From Dryococelus australis (taxonomy: Eukaryota > Arthropoda > Insecta > Phasmatodea > Phasmatidae): a stretch of 64,000 nt of DNA. A program made the translations under genes and the position numbers. This document shows positions 3,988-35,759 of this stretch, piece by piece; within the stretch, counting starts at the first letter, position 1, and each line of letters starts with the position of its first letter. The notes beneath the pieces were generated by a model. It searched no databases. It was not told the DNA's origin and worked only from the letters and a program-made list of their open reading frames with translations. The stretch lies in assembly GCA_029891345.1 (NCBI GenBank), contig CM056993.1:278954016-279018015 (forward strand), given 5' to 3'.

Positions 3988-4036
<49 letters not shown>

Positions 4037-7000
4037 GAGAATAATTACGTAAAGGTATATCTCATGCCAATACTTTTAATCAATAAATGTAATATCCAAT
4101 ATCTTGAACTTAACAAAATAGCATTGCTTTTCAACATCATTCCTAGCTCAATCAGAACAAGATCGTATTGTAAGCGGCAGCTAGGAAAAAAAAAATTAGC
4201 AAATTTATTTGTGTGTACTCACCGAGGTTAAGTATTCCCATCAGCAACTGCACACAGCCACAGAGGAACGTGAGCAGGAAGACAGACTCGATGGGAAGGT
4301 CGTGAGTATACTCAAAAGTCACCAGAGCCATCAGAGACGTGATACCGATCGACACCTCCTTGATGGTCCCAAACACCATGTAGACCAGTCCGCCCATGAA
4401 GGCCGAGTACAAACCGTACTGGCAAGAAACACAATAATTTAGTCCTGTGAGTTACGACCAGAAGTACTTCATTCCAATAAATATAATTTTATAGTTCTAA
4501 ATGGCGAATTGCTATTACAGGTTATAGCAAAACAGAAGAGACAAAGAAAAAGTCACTGATATTATACTTGTATTCAGTATTCAAATATTCTTACAATCTG
4601 TTTCAAATACACCAATGATGGTCAGTTTTACGACTTTGCCTAGGCTAATAACTTACAATAGGATTTGTAGTAATATGTAAATACTTTAACAAAAATGAGG
4701 AGTGGAAAATAGCCATTCCTTAAAAATACATTCTGTCCATGTGAGGTGAGTAGCTGAGTCATCGACCTGCACAAAAGCTGCAAGTGTATATGTAAGAAAA
4801 CATGGCCTGTTTCTCAGAAAACGAGAATAGAAATACCTCTGTATTTTAAATTATACCAAGAGTGAATGACAACAGAGTGAAATTAACACATTGGGGGGAT
4901 TACAAATATTATCAAGTATACCAAAATTTAAAACGACATGCGTTAACGATGAAACAAAATTAGTCGGCACGGCTCACTAAAGGTACTTAACATTTGAAGT
5001 TTCAGTTTTCACTCTGATGATATATTTTCACTGGCAAGTAATGTAATGAAGGTACCTTACCTGATGTGCAGTATTGATTGCATATGGTGAAAGATAATAG
5101 CATCTTTATATTCAGATTTTATAGCGCTGAATTATTGATGAATATGAAACTAATATGTATTTTTTCTTGCCATTTTTGAAGATAGCATGAAGACTTTTGA
5201 TATTTAAATATTATTTTACTATAAATGCCATCAGATATGTATAGAAACCGTTTACACTCTAAGAAAAATAAGTGAATATTATAAACTTCCACTGTTGTGC
5301 AATGTATAAAAATTGTAAAATATTTTCGATGACATATGTACTGCTCATCGCGACCTGATACGGTAGGCACCCATATTGTCATAATGACGTGTATAAGCTG
5401 CTGGTGTTTCCGATAAGGCGGTTTGACAAGAGCTTTTAGGTGAACTGATGCATATGGCCAGGCAGATTACCTAGAACATGAGTAAGACAACATACTTTGG
5501 TGGGCATCTACAGACTGACATTGACGATCAGACGAAATTACCTGTGGGCCAAGAGAAATCAAATGAATGTTAGAAAAACTGGCATGTGTGTTAGGCGAAC
5601 TGACTACTTGGACTAGGCTAATATGACGACTAGGTGTACTAACCTGGGTTTTAAGCTAACCGACTTAGATGGTAGGCGACCACTAACCTACAATGCGTGT
5701 ACGCGAAATGGCCTGTATAACTGGGTGGGCAACTGCAATCTGATCTGGGTGAATATGCACACGGTGAGAATTTTGCAAACTGACTGACGTATAGGTGAAA
5801 TGACCCGAGTCTAACCGAACTAACTTGAAGGTCAGACGAACTGACCTGAGGGTTATGTAAGGTGACTTGAAGATTAAGTGAACTGACCGGAGGAGATGTG
5901 AACTGTGGGTTAGGTAACTTGATCTCGGGGCCAAGTAAACTGTCGTGGGGAATATAGGTGCATAGGCGTAACTACTACGGCAACAACCCGTTAGCAAATT
6001 TTTCAAAACCACATCATTATTCTGCCCTGTTGCTTGATAACCCCAAGGTGGTAGAGTGAGGTTATTATTTTTTTCGTTTTACTTAATGGTTTAATGTACT
6101 AGAGGAAGATGGGCTCCAATATCATTGAAAAAACCTCGCAGGTACATCTGTGGTAGCTTCGGTCAAACTGCATGTTACGTTGAAGTGTTTGTTCCTAATG
6201 GGACCATCTGTAACCACAACACTGGGGAACTGACCTTGGGACTATGTGTTGTGACTTGGGGATGAACTGACGTCGGGGTTAGGCGAACAACCTGAGGATG
6301 AAGCAAAGCGACTCGGGGGTTAGGTAGATTAACCTGGGGGCTGGGCGAACTGATGCGGGGCCTACAGGTCCTTGCGCAATTGAAAACTGAAACATTTTAC
6401 TTTACGATTTGACTTTACGTTTGCTTATAGGCTGTTCACAGTAAAATGAACACTTTTGAAAGCTCTACTTGAAAGCTACTTGTATGCATGTTGTGTATTT
6501 CTTCGCCTTATGTAAAATTAACATTGTCATTAGCCTCATCACTTTATTTATGTGTCAGTCAAGTGAAACTGTGGAATTATAAGAAACGAAAATATGTTAC
6601 AAATCTGGTAATTTTTACACTTAGATGCATTAAAAAAGACAGAAAGCGACATAAATAATTTAAGTTATCACAAATGTTTACGTTTGTGGAACTGTTTTCC
6701 ATCTATTATTACCAATTTCACTCGGTGCATGTCACTCGTTAAAATATATGCGCCCGTTAAAATATATGCATGCAGGGCCAGTGACTTTCTTCTAAGGTTG
6801 ATTTAAAAAGTGAACTGTAAGTGAGGTGTGCTGACCTGAGCGGGCAACCCGGCGAGCGCGGCGTAGGCGATGCTCTGTGGCATCATGGTGAGGCCGAGTG
6901 TGACGCCGGCCACGCAGTCGCCCAGGGCGTCCACTCGCGTGTACCCGGCCAGCCAGTTGAGGATCGTGACGCGGTGCAGCAACACGGCTTGCAGCTTCTT

Positions 7001-7083
7001 GGCCAGTGTGCGCCCGCAGCTCGACGGCGTCTCGGCTGCTCGTCCCACTGCACACACCAAGCACGCCCCATCCGTGTCCTTGC
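2737..7083 (-). CDS. SLC26A11-like: SLC26A11-like anion transporter, gene 2 (first three recognisable coding exons; 3' part beyond left edge)
   Basis: Three exons, read right to left, encode the N-terminal third of a second SulP/SLC26 transporter: 6836-about 7083, 4223-4418 and 2737-2960. Junction phases are 0 and 1 and agree; the last exon ends at phase 0. The product starts with a short basic cytoplasmic segment and ILNWLAGYTRVDALGD, then the SulP signature GLTMMPQSIAYAALAGLPAQ and YGLYSAFMGG, then helices and LVDFISIPVTSGF. Because gene 1 supplies only C-terminal exons and gene 2 only N-terminal ones, on the same strand with gene 1 upstream, they are two tandem copies rather than one gene. 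The rest of gene 2 must lie left of base 1; nothing in 1-2700 looks like a further exon. Confidence 0.9.
3420..3848. mobile_element. MITE with CTATAGAGCG ends
   Basis: TTTGACTATAGAGCGTTCCA plus CTCTTAGATTGCAGT at the left is inverted at the right as ACTGTAATCTAAGAG plus TGAGACGCTCTATAGACAAA. About 430 bp in a gene 2 intron, no protein. Confidence 0.65.
3991..4033. repeat. (TA)n microsatellite
   Basis: About 20 TA units in a gene 2 intron. Confidence 0.9.
4223..4418 (-). CDS. SLC26A11-like: SLC26 gene 2 exon: early transmembrane helices
   Basis: It begins with YGLYSAFMGGLVYMVFGTIK and continues through EVSIGITSLMAL and a hydrophobic FLLTFLCGCVQLLMGILNLG segment. The acceptor is CTTGCCAG, the donor CTCG/GTGAGT (phase 1). 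The match to early SLC26 helices is strong and uninterrupted. Confidence 0.93.
5400..6370. repeat. Degenerate 20-25 bp minisatellite in gene 2 intron
   Basis: The motif GGTTAGGCGAACTGACCTGGG recurs many times with changes (clear near 5825-5935 and 6225-6365), about one unit every 20-30 bp. No coding sequence. Confidence 0.65.
6430..6830. mobile_element. MITE family B, long copy, beside gene 2 splice donor
   Basis: It starts GGCTGTTCACAGTAAAATGA and shares GCGTCAGTCAAGTGAAAC-type and TCTAAGGTTGATTT internal lines with 34438-34860 and 60528-60885. Its right terminal repeat is mostly lost, and it ends within a few bases of the donor at 6835. Confidence 0.65.
6836..7083 (-). CDS. SLC26A11-like: SLC26 gene 2 exon: N-terminus and SulP signature
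   Basis: It encodes HRVTILNWLAGYTRVDALGD, then GLTMMPQSIAYAALAGLPAQ, the sulfate-transporter signature around the first helices. The donor CAG/GTCAGC at 6836 is clear and phase 0. The 5' limit is not certain: acceptor-like AGs occur at 7084 (TTACAG) and 7048 (GTGCAG), or the frame could start at an ATG at 7123. A SINE lies about 50-75 bp upstream and a MITE ends a few bases beyond the donor. Confidence 0.85.
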
Positions 7084-7157
7084 CTGTAACCTGCACTACC
7101 TGCAGCAGCGCAGCCCGACACAATAATTGTGACTGTTAGCGTGAGTGATTGAATGAA

Positions 7158-12120: not shown

Positions 12121-13640
12121 AGTAGTAGGGAAAAGGGAAGTCAGGTACAACGGCATCAGCGTTCGGAACCAGAGCTGGAGGATCCGCAATGTTGTTACGT
12201 CACCTGACAGCCATCTTGGATAGCATTGGTCTTTTACCCCTGACCCATGACCTTTGATATTGACCTTTTACCTTGACCCCAAAAAATAAAAAAAAAATAA
12301 AAAAAATCTTCATAAAATGCCCAAATATTGTAAAAAAAAACTCTTAAAGTATCCCAAAAAATTACGATTACAAAATTATTTTTAAATAATAAAATTTATT
12401 AAGAATTATTTAAAAATACACTCAGAAATGACACTTTTTCCGAAGCAGGTGAGATGGATCAGCGACTTCGAACCAGAAGAGCCGGACTCAGGGCCATTGA
12501 ACTTTGACCTTGACCTTTTACTCCAAAAATCTATAACAATCCAAATAATTAAAAAAAATCCTTAAGAAATAAAAATAAACGAAATAAAATGATGATTAAC
12601 ACTACAAATAAATTTATTTATAATGTATTATAAAAATTATTAAAAAATTATTTATACATTATTTTAAAAACTTAAATTTCCCGAGCTTCCCCCCGCCTCC
12701 CTCACCCAGCAAATTAGTCGTCAGATATCCAACCCCCTCGCCCTTACCCAGTCAGTCATCTTGGTAGGTGACCGCCATCTTGGTAGGTGATCATCATCTG
12801 GTAGTGACCGCCATCTTGGTAAGCGACCGCCATATTGGTAGGCATCACCTGTACACCATCTTAGAAGCCAGTGGCCCCTAGCAATTTAACTTTGACCTCA
12901 GACTCTTGACCACTGGCCCATTACCTTGACCCTGACCCCACGATCTTGAATGACTTAGAAAGAAAAAACGCGAGAGAAATCCATAATATTTAGCAAGTAT
13001 AATACGTTACAGACTACTGCCGCCATGTTAGACTCCGACAACCTCGACCTTGATCCCATGACTTTGAATGACCTTGAAAACAAAAACCTCGAGAAAAAAT
13101 ACATAACAAATTCAGCAAGTACAACACATTAAAGACTACTACCCCTATGTTGTATACAGACTACCTCATCCTTGATCCCATGACCTTGAATGACCTTGAA
13201 AACAAAAATCAATAAACATGGCATGAAAGTCATCAATCATATGACATTACGGACAACTACCACCATATTAGATGCTGACTACCGCAACCTTGACCCCATT
13301 ACCTTGAATGAATTTGAAAACCCAAACTCGAGAAAAATCTAAAAAGTCGGCAAGCATATTATGTTACTGATTACTAAGTTAATTTCTCGATTTCACCACC
13401 AAGTGAGTTGTCGGCACTTATGGTTATACACATTAAAAACGTAATTTTCCATCCAATTAAAAAAAAAAATATATATATATTTTACAATCAGTGGTTTACC
13501 TACATGCATGATGCAGGACTTTGACTACACGCTTATATTATTAGATTTTTTAAATGCATATTTTTGTTATTAAAAACTTTAATGCGGATAGGATACAATG
13601 CACAAAAATAATTAGAAAACAATTCATTTACAATATTACT
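12121..13640. repeat. Left terminal inverted repeat with internal tandem arrays
   Basis: It pairs with 17800-20207 on the opposite strand (apart from the Helitron-like insertion). Inside are a cluster of CCATCTTGGTAGGTGACCG-like units (about 12765-12850) and about 120 bp units at 12890-13390 built on TGACCTTGAATGACCTTGAA followed by a CTCGAGAAAAAT-like stretch. No coding potential was seen. Confidence 0.75.
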
Positions 13641-13687
13641 TTATTATTACTTTGTAAATATATTTCGGAAGAAAACAGTTCATCACA

Positions 13688-14143
13688 TCAAATGATATAA
13701 CCCCGATCCTTAAGTTCTCTTATGATCGAAACCACCTCTTTCAAGTTCGAGTAATCCCCACATTGTTGCTTATCGAGCAAATATCTAAATCTGTCTATAT
13801 GTTTGTTAGGATCTTCAATAAACATATATTCAGTATAACCGACGTATTTTGCCTTTTTTTTTGCATCATCTGTCGAAGGAAACTCGTTGGGGAAATGTGT
13901 GGAAATGTCGAGGGAATCATTATCGTCTTCAATACTATCACTACCACCATAGTCATAATCAATGCTGTCGTTATGATCCTCTTCACTTCCGGTTTCATCC
14001 TCAATATCAAGTTTACTTTTCAGTGTAGCAGGAGTTGTGTGTTCATCAGTAATTAGAGCGCGATGGTCGTTTATTTCGAAGATATTTGACTTCACACGAT
14101 CATCTTGCAACTGCACCTTCCGCATAAATCGACTGTACTGCAC
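13688..14143 (-). CDS. Acidic small protein downstream of the ATPase, left-arm copy
   Basis: A 151-codon open frame ends at TGA near 13690. It has a highly acidic middle (many D/E, about residues 45-85) and a C-terminal part rich in charged and aromatic residues, ending IIRELKDRGYII. The same C-terminus is found in the right arm at 17690-17790. The annotated start may be a frame-shifted entry: the matching right-arm gene starts at an ATG (16321) whose left-arm counterpart lies near 14150 in another frame. I do not recognise the family. Its place next to the ATPase in both arms suggests a real gene of the element. Confidence 0.5.
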   Translation of the reverse strand: MQYSRFMRKVQLQDDRVKSNIFEINDHRALITDEHTTPATLKSKLDIEDETGSEEDHNDSIDYDYGGSDSIEDDNDSLDISTHFPNEFPSTDDAKKKAKYVGYTEYMFIEDPNKHIDRFRYLLDKQQCGDYSNLKEVVSIIRELKDRGYII

Positions 14144-14744
14144 TCATCCCGTATTTAGCATTAAATGTGGCGTCATAATAGTCTGCGGAAACTGTAGCCA
14201 TCGATGTGGCAGGAGGTATTGATGACATCACTTGCTGGTTCCCAGTAGACGAGCCCTCTCGGCAGACAGCGATGAACGGATGGAACCCACGCGTGTACCG
14301 TCTCCTATGTAGCAGGCAGTCCTTAACGATCGTAAAAATTCCATACTTCTCTTTCCAGCACAAGGAACATACCATGCATGATAATACGTATTTTACCACT
14401 ACTATCTTGCGGCGAGTGTGGTGCTGATTGCGATGCTGATTACGGTGAGTACAGTGCTGATTGCAGTGCTAACTGCGGTGATTGCATTGAGTGCGGTGCT
14501 GATTGCAGTGTTGGTTGCGATTGAGGTGCTGATTGCTGTGAGTGCGGTACTGATTGCGGTGCTGATTGCAGTTCCAGAGAACCAGTGCTAAAAATTTTAT
14601 AGCTTCTCTTCAAAATATCATTCCGTGTTAACTATGAAATTACATTCTTGAAGTTTTCACCCTGCAGGCTGTTATTTCATGTCGATGCACGCTGCGCATA
14701 GTTGTAAATGCTTTACCACAGAAGCTACAAAGCAGACGCATCAT
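14098..14744 (-). pseudogene. Zinc-finger plus ATPase gene, left-arm copy with ATPase core deleted
   Basis: From the ATG at 14744 it encodes a first finger (LCSFCGKAFTTMRSVHRHEI), damaged second-finger sequence, and the Gln/Ser/Ala/Pro linker (about 14430-14580). Then it jumps directly to the ATPase C-terminus (KYGIFTIVKDC, near 14340), which aligns with right-arm 16105-16300. About 580 bp holding both Walker motifs are missing, so this copy cannot bind ATP. The first finger is better kept here than in the right arm. Confidence 0.65.
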
Positions 14745-15209
14745 TGTAATTTTTCGTCTGTACTGTTCCAGATCTAGAATGATACTGAAACGAAAATATA
14801 TGAAAGCAGCATATTTATACTTTGATGAAAAGGCGTTCGCAGAATTGGTACTGGCAGCAACCAGTTATGTATATTTATATCTTATATATTATTCTATACA
14901 TAATTATGTACATTCCTATCTTATATATGTATTTTAGTATCGTATATATATGATAGTACCTGCGTGTGTTTTCTGGGGTTTATGAGTATTTTCGTTTTCC
15001 CAGAGTGCTCCCATACATCGAAGATGAATTGCAAATATGAAGGTCTGCTTTTACCTCGAGAATCATGGAGCCACGATATACATCATCACTAACTGGTTGT
15101 CGCCAGTACCAATTGTGCGATCGCGTTTTCACCAAAGTATAAATACAATCCTTTTATACATATTCGGTTCAGTATTATTATAGTCTTGAAACAATACAGA
15201 CGTAAAATG
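14744..15209. promoter_or_regulatory. Central divergent promoter pair of the mirror element
   Basis: On the plus side TATAAATA lies at 15138-15145, a TCAGT initiator at 15169-15173 and an ATG at 15207. On the minus side TATAAATA lies at 14819-14812, TCAGT at 14788-14784 and an ATG at 14744. Spacings are nearly the same on both sides (about 31 bp TATA to initiator, about 70 bp TATA to ATG). The TATA/TCAGT pair is the standard arthropod RNA polymerase II core promoter. The two halves are inverted copies. Confidence 0.65.
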
Positions 15210-16307
15210 TCAATTATGCATCTACATTTACAGTTCTGTGCAGCGTGCGTCGACATGACATAACGGCCTGCAGGGTGACAACTTCAAGAATGTTATTTCA
15301 TGTGATTTCTGCCAGAGACAGTTTATATGGAATGATATTTTGAAGAGACATTCTAAAATTTGTAGCACTGGTTCTCTGCAACTATAATCAGCACCGCAAT
15401 CATAATCAGCACCAAAATCACAACCAGCACCACAATCAGCACCACAATTACCACAAACAGTACAGCAATCACCACCGCACTCATCGCAAGATAGTAGTGG
15501 TAACATATGTATTATCATGCAAGATGTTACTTCACCCATACGCGTTCATACTGAGGATGAAGCTATCTTCCACAAATCGCGACATGGAAGCCTATTTCCG
15601 AATACAGTGAGGTGCATCATTGCGGGATCATCGGGTTGGGGCAAGACGTGCGCCCTACTGAGCCTGCCGGAAGAACCGAACGGCCTTCGGTTCGAGAACG
15701 TGTACGTACCTATATTCAAAATTGCTCCAGCAAACCGAAATACCAGCGATTGCCACGAGTACTACAGGCCGTGGAAGGTATGGGTTATTTCCCATGCAAT
15801 GATAAAGAAGCTGTCGTACCTCCGAGTGAAGCACTGTCAAATTCGATATTTGTCTTCGATGACATTGCCTGCGAGAAACAAACTTTCATTCAAGAATACC
15901 TTAACATGAGATGACACGCGTACGTGGACTGCGTGTACTTCGGTCAGACTTACTCTTGCATACCCAAACAGATGCTTCGCAACAATGCTAATGTGTTGAT
16001 GCTGTTTAGCATGGATGATTCGCATTTATGTCACGTTTACGATGACGATGTCAATACGGACATGCCTCTATCAAATTTAAAAGATGTGTGTACTTTGTAC
16101 TGGAAATATAAATATGGATTTTTGACGATCGTTAAGGACTGCCGGCTACAAAGGGGAAGGTACAAGCGTGGGTTCGATCAGTTTATCGCTGTTTGCGGAG
16201 AGGTTTCGTCTATTGGAAACCAGCAAGTGATGTCATCAAAACCTCCCGCTACATCAATGGGTACTGTTTTCGCAGACTATTATGATGCCATAGTTAATAC
16301 TAGTTAA
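15207..16307 (+). pseudogene. Zinc-finger plus A32-like packaging ATPase, right-arm copy (broken)
   Basis: From the ATG the reading frame gives zinc-finger remnants (CDFCQRQFIWNDILKRHSKI), a Gln/Ser/Ala/Pro-rich linker (about 15385-15500), then an ATPase of the FtsK/HerA A32 type. That ATPase has a Walker A stretch (AGSSGWGKT, near 15630) and a Walker B stretch (IFVFDDIACEK, near 15855), ending at TAA 16307. Known relatives package DNA into virus particles. Breaks seen: stops in the linker where CAA reads TAA, a frameshift between about 15700 and 15740, and a TGA at about 15911 where a CGA is expected (CpG decay). The finger-ATPase fusion is read from frame continuity and from the mirrored left arm. 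It cannot make a full product. Confidence 0.7.
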
Positions 16308-16320
16308 TAATATATACGGA

Positions 16321-16488
16321 ATGAGTGCAGTACAATCGGTTTGTGCGGAAGATACACTTTCAAGATGTTTGTGTGAAGTCGAAAAACTTCGAAATAAACG
16401 ACCATCAGCTCAAAATACTGATGGACACTCATTAGATATGATGGCGGGGCAGTTACCTAGTGAAGTTGGCAAACGTGGTGAGCCATGA
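16321..16488 (+). pseudogene. Acidic small protein, right-arm copy, 5' fragment
   Basis: An ATG 14 bp after the ATPase stop opens a 55-codon frame starting MSAVQSVCAEDT and ending at TGA 16486-16488. It aligns with the left-arm gene start in sequence. The remainder of the gene reappears at 17690-17790, so about 1 kb of foreign or diverged sequence splits this copy. Confidence 0.5.
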
Positions 16489-16489
16489 C

Positions 16490-17690
16490 ATGGCGTGTTG
16501 CTTTTTGTCAAATGAAACGTAAATTATTCTTACTCCAAAAAATACTTCAAATTAATTCATCACGTTTGTAGACGTTGTGTTTTTTTAAAACCTACCTAGG
16601 CAAGTTACGATGTTGTGATAAAACTGTGTTTCCACGGCAGTAATAAATATACTGTGACCCGTGTTTCGTTAATCAGTGCGTCTGTGAAATGGCGTGCCTT
16701 TGTGCATCGTGGTCGATACGCTGGCCCTGTGTGTGCGTGATTTCAAATATTTGATTAGCACTATTTATATGTTTTAAATGTGAACTGTTTTTATGACGAA
16801 GTTATTTATTTACATACACGTCTGTTTATTTATCACAACGTTGTACCTTTGCCCTAAGGGGTTTGAAACACAGTCGTGTAACGTAATTTGCCACAATCCC
16901 AGAAGAAAAATACTAAGCCCAGCCCTATAAATTTTAATAAACCTAATAAACAGTAAGTAGCAATTAATAGAAATACGAGGGGAATAAAAGTTACCATAGG
17001 CTTATTTAAGTGCATGTTCACCGCTATCTTTTAAAGTTAGTATGACAAAAAAGAGCAACACGAGTTGTGTGCTTGAATTTAATGTGCCTTTTTCATTGGT
17101 GGTTCCTTCGTTTTAATATTTATCCCAACTGAAGCCGTCCTTTTAGAGAAATGACCCAACAAATATCAATAAGGAAAGGATAATTACAATTAGTACAGCC
17201 CTTTACCTCGCAATTGTAACAGTGTTAAACACAGTTGCGGCAAAATACTAACGTGCATTACATGTATTGAGCTACGTCGGGGAAAACAATTATGTCAATG
17301 TAATGTAATCGTAAGAACTGTCTTCAATTCAGGCATTTTTAAAACGTAATAAAGCTGACCTAAATAATACTAAGAGGCCTAAACTGTGAATATTCATACG
17401 GAATGGTTTTTGGAATATGACAGACTTCTTTGAAAAGCTGTAAACAGTAAACAACACATTTGACCGGTATAAAAGTAGAAGTCACATTTCAATGTTTATT
17501 TTTAGGTGTAGAGAAAGTATACAAACATATGTACACACACACAATGGAATGTAAACATTGATTTTGACAGCTACTACATGGAAGTCACATGGCAATGTTT
17601 GTTTACATTTGGTGGAAGGATACGAAACGGGCCTGCAAGAAGATATTTAGCAGGGCTCCGAGAAAGTTGCTTCCAATGGGGAATGGACTA
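16490..17690. other. Unassigned insertion inside the right arm
   Basis: About 1 kb has no counterpart in the left arm. It is AT-rich. A short inverted pair (GTTGTGATAAA near 16612 and TTTATCACAAC near 16827) suggests a MITE in its first part. A CA-rich run is near 17530. No coding sequence was recognised. Confidence 0.4.
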
Positions 17691-17793
17691 TAGTTATTTG
17701 CTCGCTAAGCAACAATGTGAGGATTACTCGAACATGAAAGAGGTGGTTTAGATCATAAGAGAACTTAAGGATCGGGGTTATATCAGATGATGT
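17690..17793 (+). pseudogene. Acidic small protein, right-arm copy, 3' fragment
   Basis: The translated segment matches the end of the left-arm protein, with the shared IRELKDRGYI ending before TGA, but has an internal TAG near 17748. It marks where the arm homology resumes after the interruption. Confidence 0.55.
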
Positions 17794-17934
17794 GATGAAC
17801 TGCTTTCTTCTGAAAATGTATTTACAAAATAATAATAAATTATTATTGTAAATTAATCGTTTTTTTCTTTATTTTCGTGCATTGTATCCTTCTATCGAAC
17901 TTAAAGTTTTTGGTAACAAAAATTTGTATTTAAA

Positions 17935-18385
17935 ATTAATACTGCTAAATAAAATAGAAGTGTCTGTCTGTGATTTTCAAATTCTTCACTTTTAATAATT
18001 TTTTCATATAGCATAATTGATAACTAAGCCATATCTAATGTTAACTTTATTCGTGTCTGACTGTCTGTCTGTCCGAACGGATTTAGCTCAAGAACCACTC
18101 TACGTATTGTCATCGCATTTACACAGTATATAGATAATAACACCAGGACCAACCTAGTCTTTGTTTCATCGAGATATCTCAAACAATTCCGGAAAAAATG
18201 ATGATTAGGAATGTAAATAGGTACTGATTAAGCTTTTCTTAGGATTACTGCATAAAAAAAAGGATTGTTAAAAAAAATTCCGTCATTTCTTCTTTCTTTT
18301 TTGTCTAGGCTGTCCTCCTTTCCTTCCAAAAAAGCCGTAGTGGCCCAGTGGCTAGAGCTATTCAAAATGGGGCAGCAGTGACTCA

Positions 18386-18447
<62 letters not shown>

Positions 18448-19077
18448 AGTGGGGCCGCAGTAGCTGAGTGACAAGATCACCCAATAAAGGAGCCACAGAA
18501 GCTCATTGGCTAGAGCACCCAATAGTGGGGCCGCAGTAGCTCAGTGTCTAGAGAACCCAATAGTGGGGCTGCACCTGGTCAGGGCCTAGATAAACCAATA
18601 GTGGGGGCGCAGCTGGACAGGGGCTAGAGAACCCAAAAGTGGGGCCGCAGCTGGTCAGGGGTTAGATAAACCAATAGTGGGGCCGCACCTGGTCAGGGGC
18701 TAGATAAACCAATAGTGGGGCCGCAGCTTGTCAGTGGCTAGATCACCCAGTAGTAGGGCCGCAGTAGCTCAGTGGGTAGAGAACCCAATAGTGGGGCTGC
18801 AGCTTGTCAGGGGCTAGAGCACCCAAAAGTGGGGCCGCAGTAGCTTAGTGGCAATAGAACTCAATTAAAAAAGTGGCTAGATCAATTCAAAGTCCTAAAT
18901 ATCATGCTAAAATAAAACATGTGCGAAGCGATGGCAGGGTGTAATTTAATAGCTCCATTAAACCTGAAAGAAGAAATATTATTATTGTAAACATAAAAAC
19001 TTTATTAAACTATGGTGAGTTTAATTTTAATAACTTTACAAAAATATCATGCGAACGAAGTCGCACGGGTCAGTTAG
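17935..19077 (+). mobile_element. Helitron-like non-autonomous element, copy 1, with 38 bp minisatellite
   Basis: It shares its whole length with 22513-23530. The 3' end reads ACGAAGTCGCACGGGTCAG followed by TTAG, with a TGCGA...TCGCA hairpin just before. That fits the Helitron rule of a 3' hairpin and CTRR-like end with no target duplication. The left arm of the mirror element (about 13540-13555) lacks it and serves as the empty site. It encodes no protein. Confidence 0.6.
18336..18875 (+). repeat. 38 bp tRNA-like minisatellite (about 13 units) in Helitron-like copy 1
   Basis: The units read GGGCCGCAGTAGCTCAGTG then GCTAGAGCACCCAATAGTG with changes. Two variants interleave, one with TAGCTCAGTGG (a good polymerase III A box) and one with TGGTCAGGGG. 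A (TA)n run of about 57 bp at 18389-18445 interrupts the array. No B box was seen. Confidence 0.85.
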
Positions 19078-19099
19078 GATGTAATAAATTAAGCATGTA

Positions 19100-20207
19100 G
19101 TCAAAGTCCTGCATCATGCACGTAGCTAAACCACTGATCGGAAAAAATATTTAAAAAAAAAATAGGATGGACAATTGCAGGTTTTTTTAGGTCTATAATT
19201 ATAAGCGCCGACAGCTCGCCTGGTGGTGAAATCGAGAAATTAACTTAGTAGCCGGTAACATAATATGCTTGCCGACTTTTTAGATTTTTATCGAGTTTTT
19301 GTTTTCAAGGTCATTTAATGTCATGAGTTCCAAGGTTGAGGTAGTCTGCATCGTATATGGTGGTAGTTGTCTGTATTGTCATATGCTGATGACTTTTATG
19401 CCTTGTTTTCGAGTTTTTGTTTTCAAGGTTATTCAAGGTCATGGGGTATAGGTTGAGGTAGTCTGCATCCAACATGGTGGTAGTAGTCTTTAATGTATTG
19501 TGCTTGCTGAATTTTATGTATTTTTGCTCGAGTTTTTTGTTTCCAAGGACATTCAATGTAATAGGTCATGGTTGAGTACCAATATGGCTGTCGACTACCA
19601 AGATGGCTGACTGGGTATGGGCGACGGGGCGAGACCTGCCGACTAATTTGTCAGGTGAAGGAGGCGGGTAACCTCGGGAAATTTAAGTTTTAAAATAATA
19701 TTTAAATAATATTTTATAGTTTTCAATAATACATTTTAATAAATTTATTCAGAATTTCTAATGATAATACTTTTTTTTGTATTTTTTGATATTTTTTGTG
19801 ATTGTTTTTTTTTTTTTTTTTAAATAGATTTTGGTGTCAAATGTTAACGTCAAAGGTCAATGGTCCTGAGTCAGGCTCTTCTGGCTCGGAGTCGCTGATC
19901 CCTCTCGCCTGCTCCAGAAAGAATGTGTAATTTCTGAGTGACCTTTATAGTAAATTTTTAACAAATTTAAATAATTTTTAATAATAAATCGTTACGGAAT
20001 TTTTTTTAGGTATGTTTGGGATTTTTAGGTTTTTTGAGCTTTTTGGGCCCAATGGTCCTTGGGATCAAGATAAAAGGTCATAGGTAAGGGGTAAAAGGTC
20101 AACGACACCAAATATGGTGGTCGGGTGACGTAACAACATGGCGGCTCCTCCGGCTCTAGTTCCGAACGCCGACGCCATTGTCCAAGACTTCCCCTTTCCC
20201 TACTACT
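19100..20207. repeat. Right terminal inverted repeat with internal tandem arrays
   Basis: It is the reverse complement of the left arm end. It shows about 120 bp tandem units (near 19340, 19460, 19560) with TTCAAGGTCATTCAAGGTCA and CAAGATGGCTG motifs, then AT-rich spacer and the GTTCCGAACGCCGACGCC block that mirrors left-arm 12155-12175. Divergence from the left arm is visible throughout, so the arms have aged independently. Confidence 0.75.
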
Positions 20208-20860
20208 GGAAGAACAGATTTAGTTGTGTCAACACGGCATGATCTGTCCTCCACAAATAGCTGCTCAGTAATCTGTTGCCAACCCAGTGCGCTATCTGCT
20301 TCTAGTGAAGTCGTCTTACAGGCAGATATCAAGGAAAATTTGTCTGATGTTTGGGACTAATTGAGACACCATAGAAAGGTGACATCTGGCCTGTCTGTTT
20401 AATTGGGGTAAGGATTTCAGTCTCTTCAATCTCTAACAATTTGTCATTTAGAATGGTTCATTTGTCCAGCAGTAATGTTCGTCTTGAGTTGGGGAGGGGG
20501 GGGGGGGGGTCACGATGGGGGTTAGCAAGCAGCAGGTTCTTCAAAATGTCCCAGAAGCTTCTACAGTACCCTCTACCAGAAAAGACTAGTGGAACAGCTA
20601 GGAGGAACAAGAGAAAACCTCAACTGGTGGAGGAAACTACTGTCGCTGAATTACTGAAGAGAAATAAGGGCATCTTCTGTGGACCAAATGACCTTAGAAA
20701 AATTAGTGTGACAACCACAATTTTAATATAGGAGTTTCCAGGCTCATAAAGCAGTCACCAAGGCGAATGAACTAACTTCGCATGAGGAAGTTGAGGGAAT
20801 TCTGTTAGTAAGTGAAGTAGTTGAATGTGGCAGAACCATTAGTTTGCTAATGGTCTTCCT
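20208..20860 (+). other. Stretch between mirror element and gypsy fossil
   Basis: It contains a 96-codon frame (20441-20731) with a basic KRKPQLVEETTVAELLKRNK segment and a G-run. I do not recognise it, and it may be leftover retrotransposon sequence upstream of the RT. Confidence 0.25.
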
Positions 20861-20869
20861 CCATCGTAC

Positions 20870-22512
20870 TTGTTAAGAAGAAGGACGTCTCGCTGAGATT
20901 CCGTGGGGATTATCACCAGCTTAATAATGTGGCAAAGAAAGACTCTTAACCACTTCTAAGTATAGGCGATACACTGAGCAGCCTTGGAAGTTCGCAATTG
21001 TTTTCTACTTTGAACATGAATATTGCGTACTTGCAGAGCGAGGTGTCCCCAGAGGACCGAGAGAATACTGCATTTTGTGTCCAAAAGAAAGGAACCTGGT
21101 AGTTCAAAGTTATGTCTTTTGAGCTGTGTAATGTCCTTGCAACCTTATTCGAACACATAATGGAAAAAGTCCTCCCTTTAGACATATGTAAGTTTTACCT
21201 ATATGGTATCGTTGTGACAGGAAAAGTATTTGAAGAGCTATCATGCTTAACCTCTGTATTCCATAAAGTGGACGCAGTTAACTTTAAATTAGTTCCTAAT
21301 AAGTGCTACCTTTTCTAAAAGAAGATAGATTTTCTGGGACATGTAGCGTTAACCCACGGAATTGAAACGGACTCCGAGATGATCAAATAAATATGAGACT
21401 AGCCGTAACCACCTGGTAAAACCGAAGTGAGGACTTTTCTGGGATTATGTACTTACTACCATCGATTTATTCTTGGGTTTACCGCGATCGCCAAGTCACT
21501 AAATAAAATGACTGATACAGAAAGGAAATTTCATTGGATGCGCTGAATTAATTACAAACACCTATTTTACGAATTAAGGCAAATATGTAAGCACAGCTGT
21601 GAAAGCACACTGGGCACAATGAAATCCCGCCATACTGAAGAATGGCGTGCTTTACAGTAACTGTGTAAATAATGATGGGGAACACATGTGCTTACAGTTA
21701 GTGCTTCCGATATTAAGGGTTTCCGAAGTTTTAAAGGAATTGCATAATAGGGCAGCCAGTGGTCACTTTGGTGTTAATAAGACCCTTGACCAAGTTAGAC
21801 TGAGATTCTACTAGCTTCACCGTCGAGAGGACGTTGAGAAGTGATGCCGAACGTGCGACAAATTCACCAGGAGGAAGGGGTCTAAGGACTAAGATACAGG
21901 GTCACCTCGAGAAAAACAATGCTGGAGTCCTGTTCAAGAGGATGGAAGTAGATATTCTCGGCTTCTTGCCCCCCACAGAGCACAGAGAGGTAACATTTGA
22001 TTTACTGGTGGCCAAATATTTCCTTGCTAGATGGTCCCAAACAAAGAAGCACATGCTGTGGTCGATGCACTCGTAGAACATGTCTTTTCCAGGATTGTAA
22101 TTCCACTAGTACTCCCTTTTGATAAGGGACGAAATGTTCTAGTTGCTGTGTTCCAGGGTGTAAAAAAAAATTCCGGGTATTAAAAAGACTAGGACTACAG
22201 CCTTACATCCTCAGACCAAAGGAATGGTATAGAGGCTTAACCACACTCTTGACCAGTACCTGTCAATCGTCGTGGCATACAACCAAAATGACAGGAAATC
22301 AAAGGTGCCATTGTTTGTACTTACTCTCCTGCTCGGCAGTTCACGAGTCTACAAGGGCAGCATCATCGAGGATGCTGTTTGGGAGAGAGCTACATTTCCC
22401 TAGTGATCTCCTATTTGGTCGGCCGATAGAAGTGGAAGATGTGGCCCCAGAGTATGCCAGCGAATTACGTCACTCGCTAGTTGGCATTCATGATTTTGCT
22501 CCACATTCCTCA
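20870..22512 (+). pseudogene. Ty3/gypsy retrotransposon pol: reverse transcriptase and integrase, decayed
   Basis: Frame fragments in order give LVKKKDVSLRFRGDYHQLNN (RT start), VSPEDRENTAF, a broken RT active site (YLYG where Y-x-D-D is usual), and KIDFLGHVALTHGIE. Then come TFLGLCTYYHRFILGF (RNase H side) and, near 21740-21850, GHFGVNKTLDQVR with integrase zinc-binding-like spacing. Several stops and frameshifts are present. It is split by the Helitron-like element at 22513. Confidence 0.75.
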
Positions 22513-23530
22513 TCTATACTACTAAATGAAATAGTGCGTGTCTGTGATTTTCGTATTTTTCACTTTTAATAATTTTTTCGTATGGTATAATTCATAACTA
22601 AGCCATATCTAATGTTAATTCTTTTCGTGTCTGTCTGTCCAGACGGATTTCACTCAAGAAGCACTTAACGCATTGACATAGAATTTACACAGTATATAGA
22701 TAATAACCCCAGGACCAACATAGTCTTTGTTTCATCGAGATATCGCAAACGGTCCCGGAAAAAATAATGATCAGGAATGTAAATAGGTGCTGGATTAAGC
22801 TTTTCTTAGGATTACTGCATTTAAAAAAAAAGCATTGTTAAAAACAATTCCGCCATTTCTCCTTTCTTTTTTGTGTAGGGGTTGTCCTTCTTTCCTTCCA
22901 AAAAGCCGTAGTGGTCCAGTGGCTAGAGTTATTCAAAATGGGGCCGCAGTGACTCAGTGGATAGATATATATCAAGTGGGGTCGCAGTAGCTCAGTGACT
23001 ACAACGCCCAATAAGGGAGCCGCAGGAGCTCATTGGCTAGAGAACCCAATAGTGGAACCGCAGCTGGTCAGGGACTAGAGCACCCAATAAGGGGGCCACA
23101 GTTGCTCAGGGAGTAGAGAACACAATAGTGGGGCCGCAGAAACTCAATGGATAGAGAACCCTATAGTGGGGCTGCAGCTGGTCAGGGGCTAGAGCACCCT
23201 AAAGTGGGGCCGCAGTAGCTTAGTGGTTAGAGAACTCAATAGTGGGGCCGCAGCTGGTTAGGAGCTAGAGCACCCAATAGTGAGGCCACGGTAGCTCAGT
23301 GGCTAGATAACCCAATTTAAAAAAGTGGCTATATAAATCCAAAGTCCTTAATATCATGCTAAAATAAAACATGAGAGAAGTGATGGCAGGGTGTAATTTA
23401 ATAACTCAATTAAACCTGGAAGAAGAAATATCAGTATTTTAAACATAAAAACTTTATTTAACTATGGTGAGCTTAATTTTAATAACTTTACAAAAAATAT
23501 CATGATAACGAAGTCGCACGGGTCAACTAG
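22513..23530 (+). mobile_element. Helitron-like non-autonomous element, copy 2, with 38 bp minisatellite
   Basis: It begins TCTATACTACTAAATG after an A and ends CGGGTCAACTAG before a T, the A/T flanks and TC...CTAG ends expected of Helitrons. It is inserted in a Ty3/gypsy pol gene: integrase sequence stops at its left end and resumes at its right end. The middle (about 22905-23320) is the tRNA-like minisatellite. The 3' hairpin is weaker than in copy 1. Confidence 0.65.
22905..23320 (+). repeat. 38 bp tRNA-like minisatellite (about 10 units) in Helitron-like copy 2
   Basis: The same 38 bp unit and the same two variants as at 18336-18875, but a different unit number and order and no long (TA)n run. 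The array has therefore changed length between copies while the flanks stayed alignable. Confidence 0.85.
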
Positions 23531-23539
23531 TAATAAATA

Positions 23540-23800
23540 AATACACTAGGAAGACGTGGTATCATCACAGGAAAATGTAAGGCGAGGAATTTCAAGAAGG
23601 ACAACTGGTGTCGTAGTACAACCCACAGAGTTGAAAAGGATATCGCCCTAAATGTTGGAAATGTTCCTACACGATTGTGATGCAGATCAATGATGTGATC
23701 TTTCGGAATCGTCGTCAAGGCTCTCTGTCAAAGCCTAGGGCTGTACACATCCACCGACTGGCTCTCTTCGAAGATCCGGATATTTCAGTCTATTTGGGAT
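23540..23800 (+). pseudogene. Ty3/gypsy integrase C-terminus, continuing after the Helitron-like insertion
   Basis: Fragments EFQEGQLV, KCWKCSYTIVMQINDVIFRN and then RAVHIHRLALFED match the usual gypsy integrase tail (a Y-x-V-x-x-x-N-D-V core and a V-H-x-x-R-L end). It is on the same strand as, and in order with, the pol fossil left of 22513. No LTRs were identified beside it. Confidence 0.7.
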
Positions 23801-24585
23801 GGACAGACTTGAAGAGGCGCAGTGTTACATGCGGCCTCTTTGCACCCTCTTCCTTGCTCCGTCCTCCACTCGGATATGCTATGCGCGGCGCAAAACTACC
23901 CTGCCTTAAGTTTACCTTCGGTGGTTTTGTGTAGAGGGGACAAATACCAATAACCTATATAATGGCATACTATATATAACGATGGAGACTATTCCTGAAC
24001 TGGCTGGCTTTGCAATTTGTAATTCCTCAATTTAACATATTGAAAACAATTACTCTTTAAAATTAATTCTATTAATATACTGGTGCACTACAGAGTTTAT
24101 CGTGTATACACGGACTATTACCACGCGCGTATATTTAAACACACATATAATTCATACATGCAGTAAATGTGTCTTTACCATAGCAACAAACTCTTCGCTA
24201 ATCGGAGTTTCAGTGCAAACGGAACTTCCGGACATCGTGGATAGATATATTTCCAAATATTTCTCATTTACTGGAAGGAAACATTTGACATGTAGCTTAG
24301 TTCTAAGGTCACCTTAAACTGTCCGATCACTGTAGGTGGTTGTAGTAGGTTTGATTAGCTATCACCAAGAACAAACTATGAAGCTACCTGCTTTATTTGA
24401 ATAGCTAGTTTGGCTTGAAAATTTTACATTCGATTATCATCTCGTCTAATTTGTGTTTAAACTTTTTTCCATTCTTGCATAGCTTAGTCTTCTTTGTTTA
24501 TCCAGTTTATTGTTGACAAGTTGCCATGATTGGTAAAATTGCACACCTCTCTCACCAAAATCGTGAACATGGTAATGTGTCATCA

Positions 24586-24860
24586 TGCAGCGGTGGCGTG
24601 GTGGCCAAGGCGCTCGCCTGCCACCACGGCGATCCAGGTTAGATCCCCGGCGGGTTCACTCCCGGGTTTCGCACCGTGGGAATCGTGCTGGGCTATGCCG
24701 CTTACCGGCGGCTTTTCTCAAGGTACTCCCGTATCCCCCGCCTTCTCATTCAGCGCCGCTCTATCCTAGGATGTAATTTCATGTCATGACCGGGATGAAG
24801 GGAACCTACGGGTTCCAGCTTGAAAGCCACTCATTAGGAGAGTGTCACCTCACATTGGGT
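24586..24860 (+). mobile_element. tRNA-derived SINE, variant subfamily
   Basis: GCGGTGGCGTGGTGGCCAAG head, AGGTTAGATCCCCGGCGGG B box, the shared middle, but a different tail (GGTTCCAGCTTGAAAGCCAC), so a related subfamily. Confidence 0.7.
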
Positions 24861-25235
24861 GGGCCAAATGGACTATAGGATCAATACATGCTAGTGTTCC
24901 AATGCCTTAGTGTGTAGTTGCTTAGTTATGCTTAACGCCTGACAAGTCTATGATAGAGACCCTAATATGAGCGATTAGTGGTGCCCTTTTGATATAGTAT
25001 TCGTGTCTTACAACTCATAAAAGCACTAAACTGATCATGCATTCAAATGTAAGAAGATTAGTATAGCTGGGCCGAACATTTCGGGTAACGATTTTGTAAT
25101 CTGTAGCAAAAGCAGTACTTATACACAGAACCAGTTCTACGCAAACTCAAAATAGATCGCGGTAATTGCTATTATTTTAATTGAATAGCCTCATACCTTT
25201 GTGTGAAACTAAAATAATTGCGTCAGTATTATTAT

Positions 25236-28200
25236 CAGGTTGTTCGGAAATGATTGGACGAAATGCACGCTGTCCGCGTTAAACGCTCATTTCCAGCGGT
25301 TGTATGAAACCACGAGTAGTGCCCGTTAAAAAGCCACAATTAATGCAATCCTTCACACCATTTACGACGTAGCTGCAATTTTCGTAGGCAGTGTTACAGC
25401 ACTTTGTGTGTAACATGGCGGAAAATCATGATTTGCAAGACGTTTAGTTGCGTGAAAACAAGCGGCGTAAACATATCTCATTGTGAGCTAACGGGGTGTT
25501 GTGTAAGCACAGCATTTTTTGTACCAGTTATCAATGTCTCCGAGATGACGAAGGTAGAGGGTGCAGGTCGAGGGTGACGAATTGAAGACGTGCGTGGAGG
25601 TAAAACCACACACAACCCTCAAGATTGCCCGACTGCTCAATTTTTTCAGTTTCACCTCTTTCGCTCATTTACAGAAAATAATAACCGTAAAAGGAATGAA
25701 CAACTGCGTACCGCAACCGCAACTGCTCGTTCATCACCACAGTGAGCCCAGACTCATTCGTATCGTGACGTGTGATGAAAAGTGGACCCTACATTTGAAA
25801 GCGAAGTGCGCAATGTTTGTATGTTGGTGAAACTCCCAAACACACGCTGAAACCAATTTTGACGTCCCATAAAGTGTTTGCTGTTAGTGTGTTGAATAGC
25901 ACTGGATGATGTTTATAATCAATTCTCCTTTCTTCCGGGTGGAATAATTGCTGATCTCTTGTGCTGTACAAATATTTACGAGGTTTGCTGGCAGATGTGT
26001 AAAAATTAGCCATCTTTGGAAAATAGGAATGGTCCTTTGTACGACTCCGCGAAACAAAATATCGAAATAGTAATTCTAAGGGCCGGTTTCACCAACACAT
26101 CTAAAATTTAAGCACTACTTAAACACTGAATAAGCTGTGCCTAGCGCATTGTACCATTCCACCAACTTTAAGCTCTTCTTAAAATGTTTTAAGCAGCTCT
26201 TAGTTTAGGCAGCCGAAATCGGATGCCTAACTCTATAAGCTCTGTTTAAATCATTGTAAACAAATTAAAAGGAAAATGGCTGCCACTGAAAAAAGTTGTG
26301 TGTTGATAACCCCAAATGTGCTATAAAGTATTCAGTTTTATAAATTAAATTTTTTGATAAACAAAAATTAGAAATGATCGTGTATCAAAGTTATTGAGTC
26401 TGGGTGCAAGTCTTTATTTGCTGAAATAACCTATGACCTTGGTCGAAAACAAAGCTCGTGGCAGGCTTATATTTGTTTATGTACATTTTACACGTATTTT
26501 CAAGAGGCAGACCCAATTTATACATAGGAAATTGAGTGTAAAGGCAGGTAGCTGATTAATAAAATATGAATTTATTGAGTACGCATAAGCTACGGAAGTA
26601 CCTTTTTGAAATAAATGGAAAAAATGTTTGCCTTCACTACACTGCATGTATGTACGATATATATGCCTAAAAATATATGATTACTTTGATAGAATTTGAG
26701 ACTGGACATGATATAATACATTTACACCTATGTTTTACTACACATGACAAATCTGCAGTACACGTTTTGCACATATTCGACTTTGTTTTGAATTAGAAAA
26801 CTTAACGAGCGCCCAATTAAATATGTCAGACAGGTGTGACGTGGTAATCATATTTTTTTCAAATTCGGGCACTCGGCGTTTCTAAATTGCACATGAATAT
26901 CGCCAGTGTTATTATCAACAAATTATCAAAATTTCAGAAAGTTCAATTCTGGTTAGTGATGAACGCCAACATAGCAGTAATGTGGTACGTAAAATATAAA
27001 ACAGTTGTATTAAAGTAGAAAAATTTGGGATGGCCTTGTAGACTGTAGTAAATGTAGACACAGTGATGTTTTTTAATGGCAATACGATTTTTACACGGAA
27101 TATACATAACGTTTAGGGAATATTTAATCAGTGCCTAAACAAGACGACAGTTTCATTCTAAAAATTCAGTAACCTAAGGTATTATTATTATAAAACATTT
27201 AATATATAAATGCTTGAAGAAAGCCACATAAATATATTTAACGAGTCTAAAACATTACCCGAGTATATAAAATATAAAACAATTAACATTCTGACTAGTA
27301 AAAAACAGCCCAGGCCTAATATAGATCGTAGCTTATGCTGCGAAAAATGACACTTCTTGGCACTGATAATGAATAAAAACGATCATAAAACATCACAGAA
27401 TTGCAACACAACACTTCCACGATAATAAATCAGCCTCGAAAAATAAAAAACTTATCTATTCACGAACGTAGTTTAAACATAAATAAATTTCTGTTCGCGT
27501 AGTTAGTTGAACAAATCGATTACACATATAGTTTTCGTATATGCAGTGACGTTTGTTTGAATTGATTCTTATTATTCGTCAGGCAAACGATAAAGCTTTA
27601 ATCGTTTATTATAAAACAAGTATTTGGTTAGGATTCGTAATGCTCATAACAAAAGTAAACATAACATTTCAGGGAAAAAAATGGTTTTTTTCCCCTTTCG
27701 TTGAAAAATTCTCATTGGTTCGTTTAGTTACATAACCACAATGGGCCACTACCAACATGAGAATATTTGCAACTGGTTTCTTTAAGCAACGCCCAGCTAA
27801 AACGCGCTTATAAAACTGAGTTTCACAATGGTGAAACACCGTGACATCATTAAGAGCCACTTAAACTTAAGTATGGCTTTGGTGGAACCTAGTTTATTCC
27901 TTGTTGGTGAAACCGGCCCTAAGAGTCCTGAAGTATGAAACGATTCCGCACCATCCATATTCCCCAGGATGAAGACCATCAGACTACCACATGTATATGA
28001 ATCTAAGTCACTTCCTGAAAGACAGGATGGTTAAAAAAAATATATATATAGTTCAGAGAGTGCCTTCCGGGACTTCCTTGCATCACGGAAACCGGAAGCC
28101 ATGTTTATTTAGGGACTGGATTGAGAATTTCGAGACTTATTGGCAGAAATGTGTCACTGTAGATGGATTTTTTTTTGGAATGGTGCAGGTATATTTACTA
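25236..28200 (+). pseudogene. Mariner-family transposase fossil, interrupted by a MITE
   Basis: It begins near a TATCAGGTTGTTCGGAAATG mariner-like end. Coding fragments run MAENHDLQDV (25416), then IVTCDEKWTLHLKAKCAMFV (DDE core, first catalytic-type D in TCDEKW) up to about 26075. After the MITE 26080-27919, a segment with HHPYSPG and WQKCVTVDGFFF follows, typical of mariner C-termini. Stops and shifts are present. Removing the MITE plus one TAA brings the two halves together without a shift. Confidence 0.75.
26080..27919. mobile_element. Harbinger-type non-autonomous element (1.84 kb)
   Basis: Perfect 18 bp terminal inverted repeats GGGCCGGTTTCACCAACA / TGTTGGTGAAACCGGCCC, flanked by TAA on both sides (26077-26079 and 27920-27922). 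The TAA duplication and GGGCCGG ends fit PIF/Harbinger. Inside it is AT-rich without a transposase. Confidence 0.8.
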
Positions 28201-30049
28201 CAATTCTCAGTAGTTATGTAAGTTTTAAAAATGGTCGTTTATTAAAAAATAATTTAGTTCTATTGTGGGGCCTAGACCAAAAATAACATCATAATTAAAA
28301 ACCTAATATAAATGAAACTTTAAAGATATGGTTATCTTTATTGCTTTATTGCTTGTACGAATTTTCTACATTAATTCTATTTTATTTACTCTATTGCTGG
28401 AGTGAAGCAGTTTGGTGTCTGTCTGACCCCAGTAAACAAAAAAAAACCTAAACTGACAAGCGCATATTGACAAAATATTATTAGCGAACAAATTTTAATA
28501 AGACGTTCGATATTTTTATTTTAAGTTGTCTGCACATTAAATAATAATATTTATGGATGGAATTTCCCTTCGGAAACTATGTTCATTGCAATACTGAAAA
28601 AGGGTCACCAATATGTACGAAACTATTCAATACTGTAGATAGTTATTTTGTAATTCTATTTGTTGTATTAATCACTTTGATTGCAGTTTGGCCACAATGT
28701 GCAATACCTAAAATCACAAGCTTAAATACTGACACAGTTTTACTAAATTTCAGAAATGACACACTCAGACATTTGAACTATCTTTGTTCACTGCTTATCT
28801 AAACCGTAAAAAAATGATAGGACAATTGTATGACAAGTGTAACTTAATGTTCGCAAACTTGTGGGGAAACATAGTTTTCCTTACAAGTAAGGTATAATTA
28901 CCGCACTCTGGAGTAAAGTTCACGTACATGGTAGTGGAAAATCCCATACATGGAAATGAAAATTACCTTAAAACGCGTGCATCTCTTCAGCATTCTCAAC
29001 AGCTAAAAAGGGGGGGGGGGGGAGAAAGAATATTTAACACGCTAATATTCACTGACTTTGATCTATTGTCTTCGTGGTGTAATGGATAGCGCATCGGCCT
29101 ATTGTGATAGAGGATAACGGTTCTCGCCCACCCACCAGCAAGAGTCGAGGATTTTAGTGTCGAGAGTTCGCTTACAATTCATAAGAGGATATAGGCAATA
29201 GAAAGGTTAGCAGTACAAACACTCCCGGGTGTCTTTAAACATAACTTTAATGTACAATATGGTTAATTTTCCCTTACTTGTAGGGGATTATTCCCCCAAC
29301 TTTGTCAGGTACTTTTTCCGTACGATTGGAGAGCAGTATACATTTACGAGGTAATTTAACCTTACATGCAGAGGTGATTTGCTTCCCTTACATGTACGCA
29401 TTTATTTGATTCAGAAAAGTCCTACAGCTACGTCTTAAAAACTTCTTTTAAATTGTCTCAATACACACTTAACTTTTATAACAGTCAGGAAGAAGTTTTA
29501 AATTAAGTGCAAGCAATTAGTTCAAATTACGGAAAACACTGGTTACTTCATTTTTAGTCTTCTTTTCTTGAATTGTTCCCTGCTGGATAAAGGCCCAAAT
29601 GGTGCAACTACAGAGCAATGCATATATCGCTGAGGATGTGTAATGACAAATAGGCTAAGTCTTAAAAATCAATGCTAAAAACACAATAACACAGTTTTAA
29701 CTCTTAATCCTTGGGTGATGTGCATCTTTTGGTCATCATTATGGACTGAAATATGATAGGAAATCACTTTAACATAAATTAAATTACGTGTAAATTAAAT
29801 TTAAATAAGGTATGAAATTATGAGACGTTGAACATTGTGTAAGACATCTAGGCTCTAGCGAATAAATTCACCTCCTTCTATTTCTCAATGCATTTTAAGA
29901 TTTTCTCTTATTTTCTAACATTGTGGTTTGGAAAATAATTTTGGAAATCACGTGGCAACTCGGTGGTTAGCTGGTTGGTGTCTGCACAATGTATTAATGG
30001 TGCAGTATGATTGGTTAAAAGTCAACATGACACCATAAAGCTTGCCTAT
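28201..30049. other. No gene seen apart from a tRNA-like relic
   Basis: AT-rich, with a G-run at 29010-29022. Confidence 0.5.
29069..29150 (+). tRNA. tRNA-Arg-like relic
   Basis: GTCTTCGTGGTGTAATGGAT plus AGCGCATCGGCC resembles the 5' half of tRNA-Arg(UCU), and AGAGTCG ends it. The T-arm (CGGTTCTCGCCC) lacks the GTTCGA core, so it is a pseudogene or SINE head rather than a working tRNA. Confidence 0.35.
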
Positions 30050-35754: not shown

Positions 35755-35759
35755 ACAGC

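Follow-up and report, generated by a model that had tools for sequence, protein, structure and literature searches.

We analysed a 64,000-nucleotide window of the genome of the stick insect Dryococelus australis (GCA_029891345.1, contig CM056993.1, positions 278,954,016 to 279,018,015; hereafter, the window, with coordinates counted from its first letter), in which positions 12121-20207 are occupied by an 8.1-kb mirror-image element that includes a 1.1-kb nested insertion. Each arm carries, or carried, a gene for an A32-like DNA-packaging ATPase that points outward from a shared centre. Comparison of the element with the window by blastn yielded collinear minus-strand matches (best E 9e-143), showing that the mirror structure is real, and confirmed the claim of a preliminary description that inverted arms run from both tips to a short centre, which spans 193 bp by blastn or 222 bp when measured between the ungapped arms. 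The arms and their matching segments, all from blastn, are as follows.

12121-14881, left arm
14882-15074, no strand, centre, without a match elsewhere in the window
15075-20207, right arm
12121-12785 with 20207-19577, minus strand, arm match pair
13043-13546 with 19576-19079, minus strand, arm match pair
13548-13787 with 17935-17691, minus strand, arm match pair
14036-14372 with 16431-16086, minus strand, arm match pair
14362-14411 with 15532-15485, minus strand, arm match pair
14482-14881 with 15489-15075, minus strand, arm match pair

Additional blastn matches between units of a tandem array lie off-register alongside these collinear blocks. Reading outward from the centre, the layout of an arm consists of a promoter-like motif pair, a finger motif with a segment rich in Q, S, A and P, the A32-like ATPase, an acidic C-terminal open reading frame (ORF), a poly(A) signal, an array of 118-bp repeats and a tip of ~650 bp. 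Thus, the order of parts ascribed earlier to both arms was recovered, but equal content was not, because the ATPase core is found only on the right and the long acidic ORF only on the left. Likewise, the arms were expected to align over most of their length, which is true of the left arm (82% aligned, summed from the blastn matches) but not of the right arm (only 42%).

The two copies of the ATPase gene are located as follows.

15511-16193, plus strand, right-arm A32-like packaging ATPase (tblastn and hidden Markov model, HMM)
14265-14375, minus strand, left-arm A32-like ATPase remnant, C-terminal part with the core missing (tblastn; HMM, E 1.1e-7)

The right arm alone retains the Walker A/B core, in a gene that is disrupted twice, by a frameshift located between 15708 and 15732 and by a stop at 15912-15914. 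A protein search, in which the internal stop of the query was written as X, retrieved 12 metagenomic relatives that align to roughly two-thirds of the query at 45-61% identity. When six of these 12 were used as tblastn queries, one of them (P0001) matched 15511-15708 (57%) and 15732-16193 (61%) in two frames with an E value of 5e-72, and an HMM built from the relatives matched three pieces of the right arm (E 3e-37, 4e-22 and 2e-17). Precomputed PF04665 (Pox_A32) annotations are carried by 10 of the 12, and the same family was matched by all 11 that were scanned (E up to 0.1), with P0001 scoring 34.1 bits against a cut-off of 22.8; the broken ATPase pieces of the window itself gave no PF04665 match in Pfam scans. 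The structure most similar to a model of P0001 (mean predicted local distance difference test score, pLDDT, 75) in the PDB is the packaging NTPase B204 of STIV2 (E 6e-6), and among viral models the top match is a Cotesia bracovirus protein (32% identity, E 4e-8), followed by packaging ATPases of giant viruses and virophages, with an adintovirus FtsK-like protein ranking 26th. Collectively, the relatives, their HMM, the Pox_A32 matches and the STIV2 match bear out the ATPase predicted initially, and its assignment to the A32-like (FtsK/HerA) family of packaging motors is sound, with no finer lineage implied. Searches of viral and prokaryote contigs produced no confirmed relative and no exact pattern match; a protein search with a 127-amino-acid piece and a search of phage records for 14036-15540 returned nothing. 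PHROGs gave only weak matches, the best being a terminase at 0.047, three relatives had nothing above cut-off in NCBIfam, the PDB searched by sequence contained nothing convincing, and no Rfam family (at the gathering score) or tRNA was detected within the window.

The remaining parts of the gene region, on both sides of the ATPase, are listed below.

14664-14729, minus strand, left C2HC-type finger motif (zf-C2H2_4, E 0.006, 17.6 bits against a cut-off of 27)
15301-15363, plus strand, right C2HC-type finger motif (weak profile matches, all under cut-off)
14443-14631, minus strand, left open stretch with the remains of a second finger, then a Q/S/A/P-rich linker
13688-14143, minus strand, acidic ORF of 151 amino acids in the left arm (ORF list)
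13548-13787, minus strand, left 3' block, with the end of the acidic ORF, its stop at 13688 and AATAAA at 13645; pairs with 17935-17691
17691-17935, plus strand, right 3' block, with the end of the acidic part, one internal stop and AATAAA at 17834
16432-17690, no strand, unmatched stretch of the right arm (1259 bp) in the place of 248 bp on the left (13788-14035; blastn)
17936-19078, plus strand, nested repeat insertion with a 38-bp minisatellite; second copy at 22516-23542 (Tandem Repeats Finder, TRF, and blastn)

A fusion of the fingers to the ATPase is possible because the reading frames are partly continuous: on the right, the finger and the linker are read in the frame of the ATPase start, broken by two stops, and on the left the linker is in frame up to the equivalent of the ATPase start, with one stop. 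The left finger lies in a different frame from the left linker, the right finger differs from the left one and sits at another place, and the linkers of the two arms differ by alignment gaps of 2, 24, 18, 15 and 2 bp. The relatives are 182-268 amino acids long and most start near the residue matching 15517, the exceptions being P0003 and P0005, which begin earlier, and P0004 and P0008, which are shorter. Given that the relatives mostly start at the ATPase and that the finger profile matches are below cut-off, we reject the finger-ATPase as an established fusion.

We regard the acidic ORF as the probable C-terminal end of the ATPase gene, with its frame blurred by small insertions and deletions. 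Its length alone is not significant, having been reached in 21 of 300 simulations, and it is rejected as a known protein, since none of 16 candidate homologues reached E 0.1 and no loci were obtained. The right arm retains approximately the last 32 codons of this ORF and its stop, with 7 differences in 100 bases, one of which creates the internal stop; the mismatches by codon position (1, 4 and 2) reveal no third-position excess. In both arms, AATAAA follows the stop.

Near the centre, each arm contains a motif pair directed outward.

14788-14819, minus strand, left core-promoter-like pair, TATAAAT at 14819 and TCAGTA at 14788
15138-15174, plus strand, right core-promoter-like pair, TATAAAT at 15138 and TCAGTA at 15169

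The combination of TATA and TCAGTW is an arthropod core promoter. The spacing between TATAAAT and TCAGTA is 31 bp in both arms, and another TATAAAT is present at 14879. A looser pattern (TATAAA, 16-26 bases, TCAGTW) occurs four times on both strands of the window, and two of the four are the arm pairs. Therefore, of the shared central promoter proposed originally, the outward motifs hold up in a motif scan, and by this pattern a promoter at the centre is plausible.

The outer parts of the arms belong to a family that is represented in the window by one further copy.

12121-12785, minus strand, left tip block, the flanking domain of a long inverted repeat (blastn to 20207-19577)
19577-20207, plus strand, right tip block (blastn)
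12757-12842, no strand, 19-bp subterminal repeats CATCTTGGTAGGTGACCGC, 4.6 copies (TRF)
12922-13376, minus strand, left 118-bp tandem array (TRF, unit scan and unit tree)
19246-19576, plus strand, right 118-bp tandem array, collinear with the left (TRF, blastn and unit tree)
30513-~31390, plus strand, third arm, a more distant copy with array and tip only, its outer end approximate

The third arm is the sole other copy of the element family seen within the window, and its homology fades ~30 bp short of 12121/20207. The arm shared by the two halves of the palindrome stops close to this point, that is, near the terminus of the family. In MAFFT alignments the tips of the palindrome are 74.7% identical to each other, compared to 63.1% and 61.3% identity with the third arm. 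The core CCATCTTGGTAG, with at most one mismatch, occurs seven times in the window, all seven inside the arms or the third arm. The arrays are in register between the arms over 13043-13546 (blastn), and the pairs in a tree of eight array units are L1-R1 (0.92), L2-R2 (0.83) and L3 together with unit three of the third arm (0.86). From this in-register alignment and the pairing of units, the array seems, with moderate support, to predate the duplication of the arm. Two motifs of these outer regions are worth recording. The 19-bp repeats contain CCATCTTGG (12756-12841, 19595-19606 and 30864-30894), presumably a YY1/Pho-like core, and TCAAGGTCA, which we take to be a nuclear receptor half-site of the FTZ-F1/ERR type, has eight sites in the window (12505-31070), 8/8 within arms of the element family, compared to 0.49 expected from shuffles, with the caveat that tandem repetition makes the sites non-independent.

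The arms have diverged considerably, differing at 324 of 2115 ungapped sites across seven segments. Ungapped identity per segment is 80-91% (72-88% in blastn, which counts gap columns); 13-20% of ungapped sites differ in six of the seven segments, and 8.9% in the 3' block. For the tip blocks, 108 of 612 ungapped sites differ, corresponding to 82.4% identity with one pairwise aligner versus the MAFFT value. The right arm contains 553 bp (15533-16085) that are absent from the left and hold most of the ATPase core. A part of its unmatched stretch (17632-17669) resembles a repeat at 35286-35323, and the ends of the nested repeat and of its second copy look, by our assumption, Helitron-like. The ancestral arms would have been more symmetrical than the present ones. 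In the C-terminal part of the ATPase, mismatches between the arms fall at codon positions one, two and three in numbers of 10, 11 and 17 (a weak test). Polarity was judged against 11 relatives at 36 residues, likewise a weak test: the arms disagree at 11 of them, with the relative-like residue on the right at five, on the left at two and in neither arm at four.

Several known systems resemble parts of this element. Mavericks/Polintons possess inverted ends, as found here, and a 6-bp target-site duplication. The Tlr elements of Tetrahymena share with the element long terminal inverted repeats (TIRs) with 19-mers, and, unlike it, contain many genes that are not duplicated head to head. Snap-back or symmetric defective genomes of linear DNA viruses consist of an inverted duplication of one end with the terminal repeats kept, and are known from infections rather than as old chromosomal insertions. 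Turning to the literature, with each paper cited here drawn on in excerpt, insect Mavericks encode an A32-like ATPase (PMC5803895), a likeness of packaging genes that we count in favour of an origin from a virus-like element. Polintons have several core genes (PMC4028283; PMC3671162), and a length of 15-20 kb and genes for PolB, integrase, protease and capsid proteins are described for them (PMC4028283), versus 8.1 kb here, where each arm has one recognisable gene, in mirror-image copies, and no target-site duplication was found. A six-frame Pfam search of 12121-20211 detected no pPolB, RVE integrase, protease or capsid domain, the lone match being DUF3669 (E 0.036, below cut-off), and the same scans also missed the ATPase. 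The large Tlr transposons carry an FtsK-like ATPase (PMC4028283). In the foldback element Tetris, the TIR is composed of a flanking domain, a tandem-repeat array and an inner domain, and the excerpt describes a middle domain without apparent coding capacity and complete copies without conserved ORFs (PMC4079207). Foldback elements such as Tetris and Galileo thus resemble the present element in their long TIRs with a tandem-repeat outer domain, represented here by the 118-bp and 19-bp arrays; in contrast to Tetris, the inverted repeat here encloses a broken virus-type ATPase gene and promoter-like motifs. The matched arms start with AG and finish with CT (12121 and 20207; the exact tip is uncertain), as had been noted, but the link to Polintons and adintoviruses drawn from these letters and the ATPase is not borne out, because two letters are not diagnostic, no other core gene emerged from the insensitive scan and the ATPase family is common to many virus lineages. 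The element, hence, answers in part to the Polinton and foldback descriptions and in part departs from both, and we assign it to neither group; functionally, it is most comparable to a non-autonomous foldback derived from a virus-like element. A literature search in one open-access collection found no title on a palindromic Polinton-like element or on an ATPase-bearing foldback.

We tentatively interpret the locus, with a probability of roughly 0.47, as a fossil element, palindromic and non-autonomous, that descended from an A32-ATPase virus-like element, had ends of the foldback type and became a palindrome by copying during its life cycle. The source would be one end of a virus-like element encoding an A32-type packaging ATPase. 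While this element replicated, its terminal segment, comprising the tip, the subterminal repeats, the 118-bp array and the ATPase gene with its promoter, would have been duplicated as an inverted dimer by a mechanism such as fold-back or a switch of template on a displaced strand. The product keeps two like outer ends, which may suffice for a helper integrase or transposase acting in trans and through which helper proteins would have moved it. Its sequence shows two divergent copies of one gene pointing away from the shared middle, which presumably specified a DNA motor. Both arms have since decayed: the left has lost the core, and the right has acquired a frameshift, a stop and the nested insertion and has lost the acidic part. 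A single copying of the whole arm followed by decay is the simplest account, and inverted copying within the life cycle is favoured because the shared arm stops near the family terminus and the inner ends lie within 193 bp of each other.

Several observations weigh against this interpretation. The coincidence of the arm ends is in part true by construction, which weakens the argument from them. No complete parent element is seen in the window, and the six-frame Pfam scan of 12121-20211 detected no other Polinton-type gene and overlooked the ATPase as well. Comparison of the flanks revealed no target-site duplication at the tips, the best 6-mer pair being 5/6 (12107 with 20204; 7/9 over nine bases) and offset from the tips. 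The 3' block is less diverged than the remainder (21/237 vs 303/1878, p 0.003), and the divergence of the tips is 17.6% or 25.3%, depending on the aligner, so that one uniform clock is not established. Unit R2 is equally close in raw identity to R1 (82.1%), C1 (81.5%) and L2 (81.4%); hence, the position-wise pairing of units rests mainly on L1-R1. Finally, the ratio of non-synonymous to synonymous change (dN/dS) between the ATPase C-termini of the arms is 0.50 (15 synonymous changes at 61.5 sites, 28 non-synonymous at 208.5; Fisher p 0.046), a marginal result, from one of several tests, that takes in some codons past the right-arm stop. This value hints that the gene was still of use as the arms diverged, a history with which a one-off event is less compatible.

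That modest purifying signal would be more at home in a persistent foldback-type transposon family that multiplied as a palindrome, having captured a viral ATPase in each inverted repeat, with its transposase supplied from elsewhere. The TIR anatomy matches that of Tetris in its flanking, tandem-repeat outer and inner domains (PMC4079207, in excerpt), and a more distant arm exists at 30513-31390, the third unit of which pairs with L3. However, a single palindrome is seen, the third arm comprises only array and tip, neither a target-site duplication nor, in the insensitive Pfam scan, a transposase domain was found in the element, and we consider such a family rather unlikely. Less likely still is the joining of the arms after integration, whether two elements inserted separately or one element end was duplicated in situ, in inverted orientation, within the chromosome. 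The third arm demonstrates that lone arms exist nearby, the pair lacks a framing target-site duplication and the divergence of the arms is not perfectly uniform, all of which would fit. Nevertheless, the end point of an inverted duplication in the chromosome should be arbitrary, so that the stop near the family terminus fits a life-cycle palindrome better; two head-to-head insertions are disfavoured because both would have been truncated within ~193 bp of the same inner point; and the tips are closer to each other than to the third arm. A further reading, that the element represents a separate class of palindromic packaging parasite, a satellite whose sole gene, in two divergent copies, encoded a packaging motor fused to fingers recognising its own arrays, and which was loaded into the particles of a helper virus-like element and reinserted via its like ends, strikes us as highly improbable. 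A false hairpin join in the assembly, palindromes being a generally known assembly error, is rejected with a probability close to nil, because an artefact would yield near-identical arms and these differ at 324/2115 sites and by arm-specific insertions and deletions.

Either of the two origins put forward initially, a snap-back defective genome or a palindromic non-autonomous class, may apply. If other copies share the centre, the element would define a class of animal mobile DNA propagating in mirror-image form, with a viral packaging motor as its only gene; such a class would link foldback transposons with Maverick-type viruses, and the theft of packaging by satellites could then be tested in animals. 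Should the copy be unique, the locus may instead preserve a fossil snap-back genome.

Around the element, scattered exon-like ORFs lie on the minus strand on either side (2623-7135 and 52210-61222), which we take to be parts of SLC26 sulphate transporters, possibly of two tandem genes flanking the element. A minus-strand ORF at 63586-63981 looks to us like a fragment of a pogo-type DDE transposase. A family of 76-bp tRNA-like repeats, perhaps the head of a short interspersed element, is present at 7303, 46141, 55831 and 59056, and ARAGORN calls no tRNA there. A separate inverted pair, 35541-35758 and 54519-54737, is 83-90% complementary with its members 19 kb apart.

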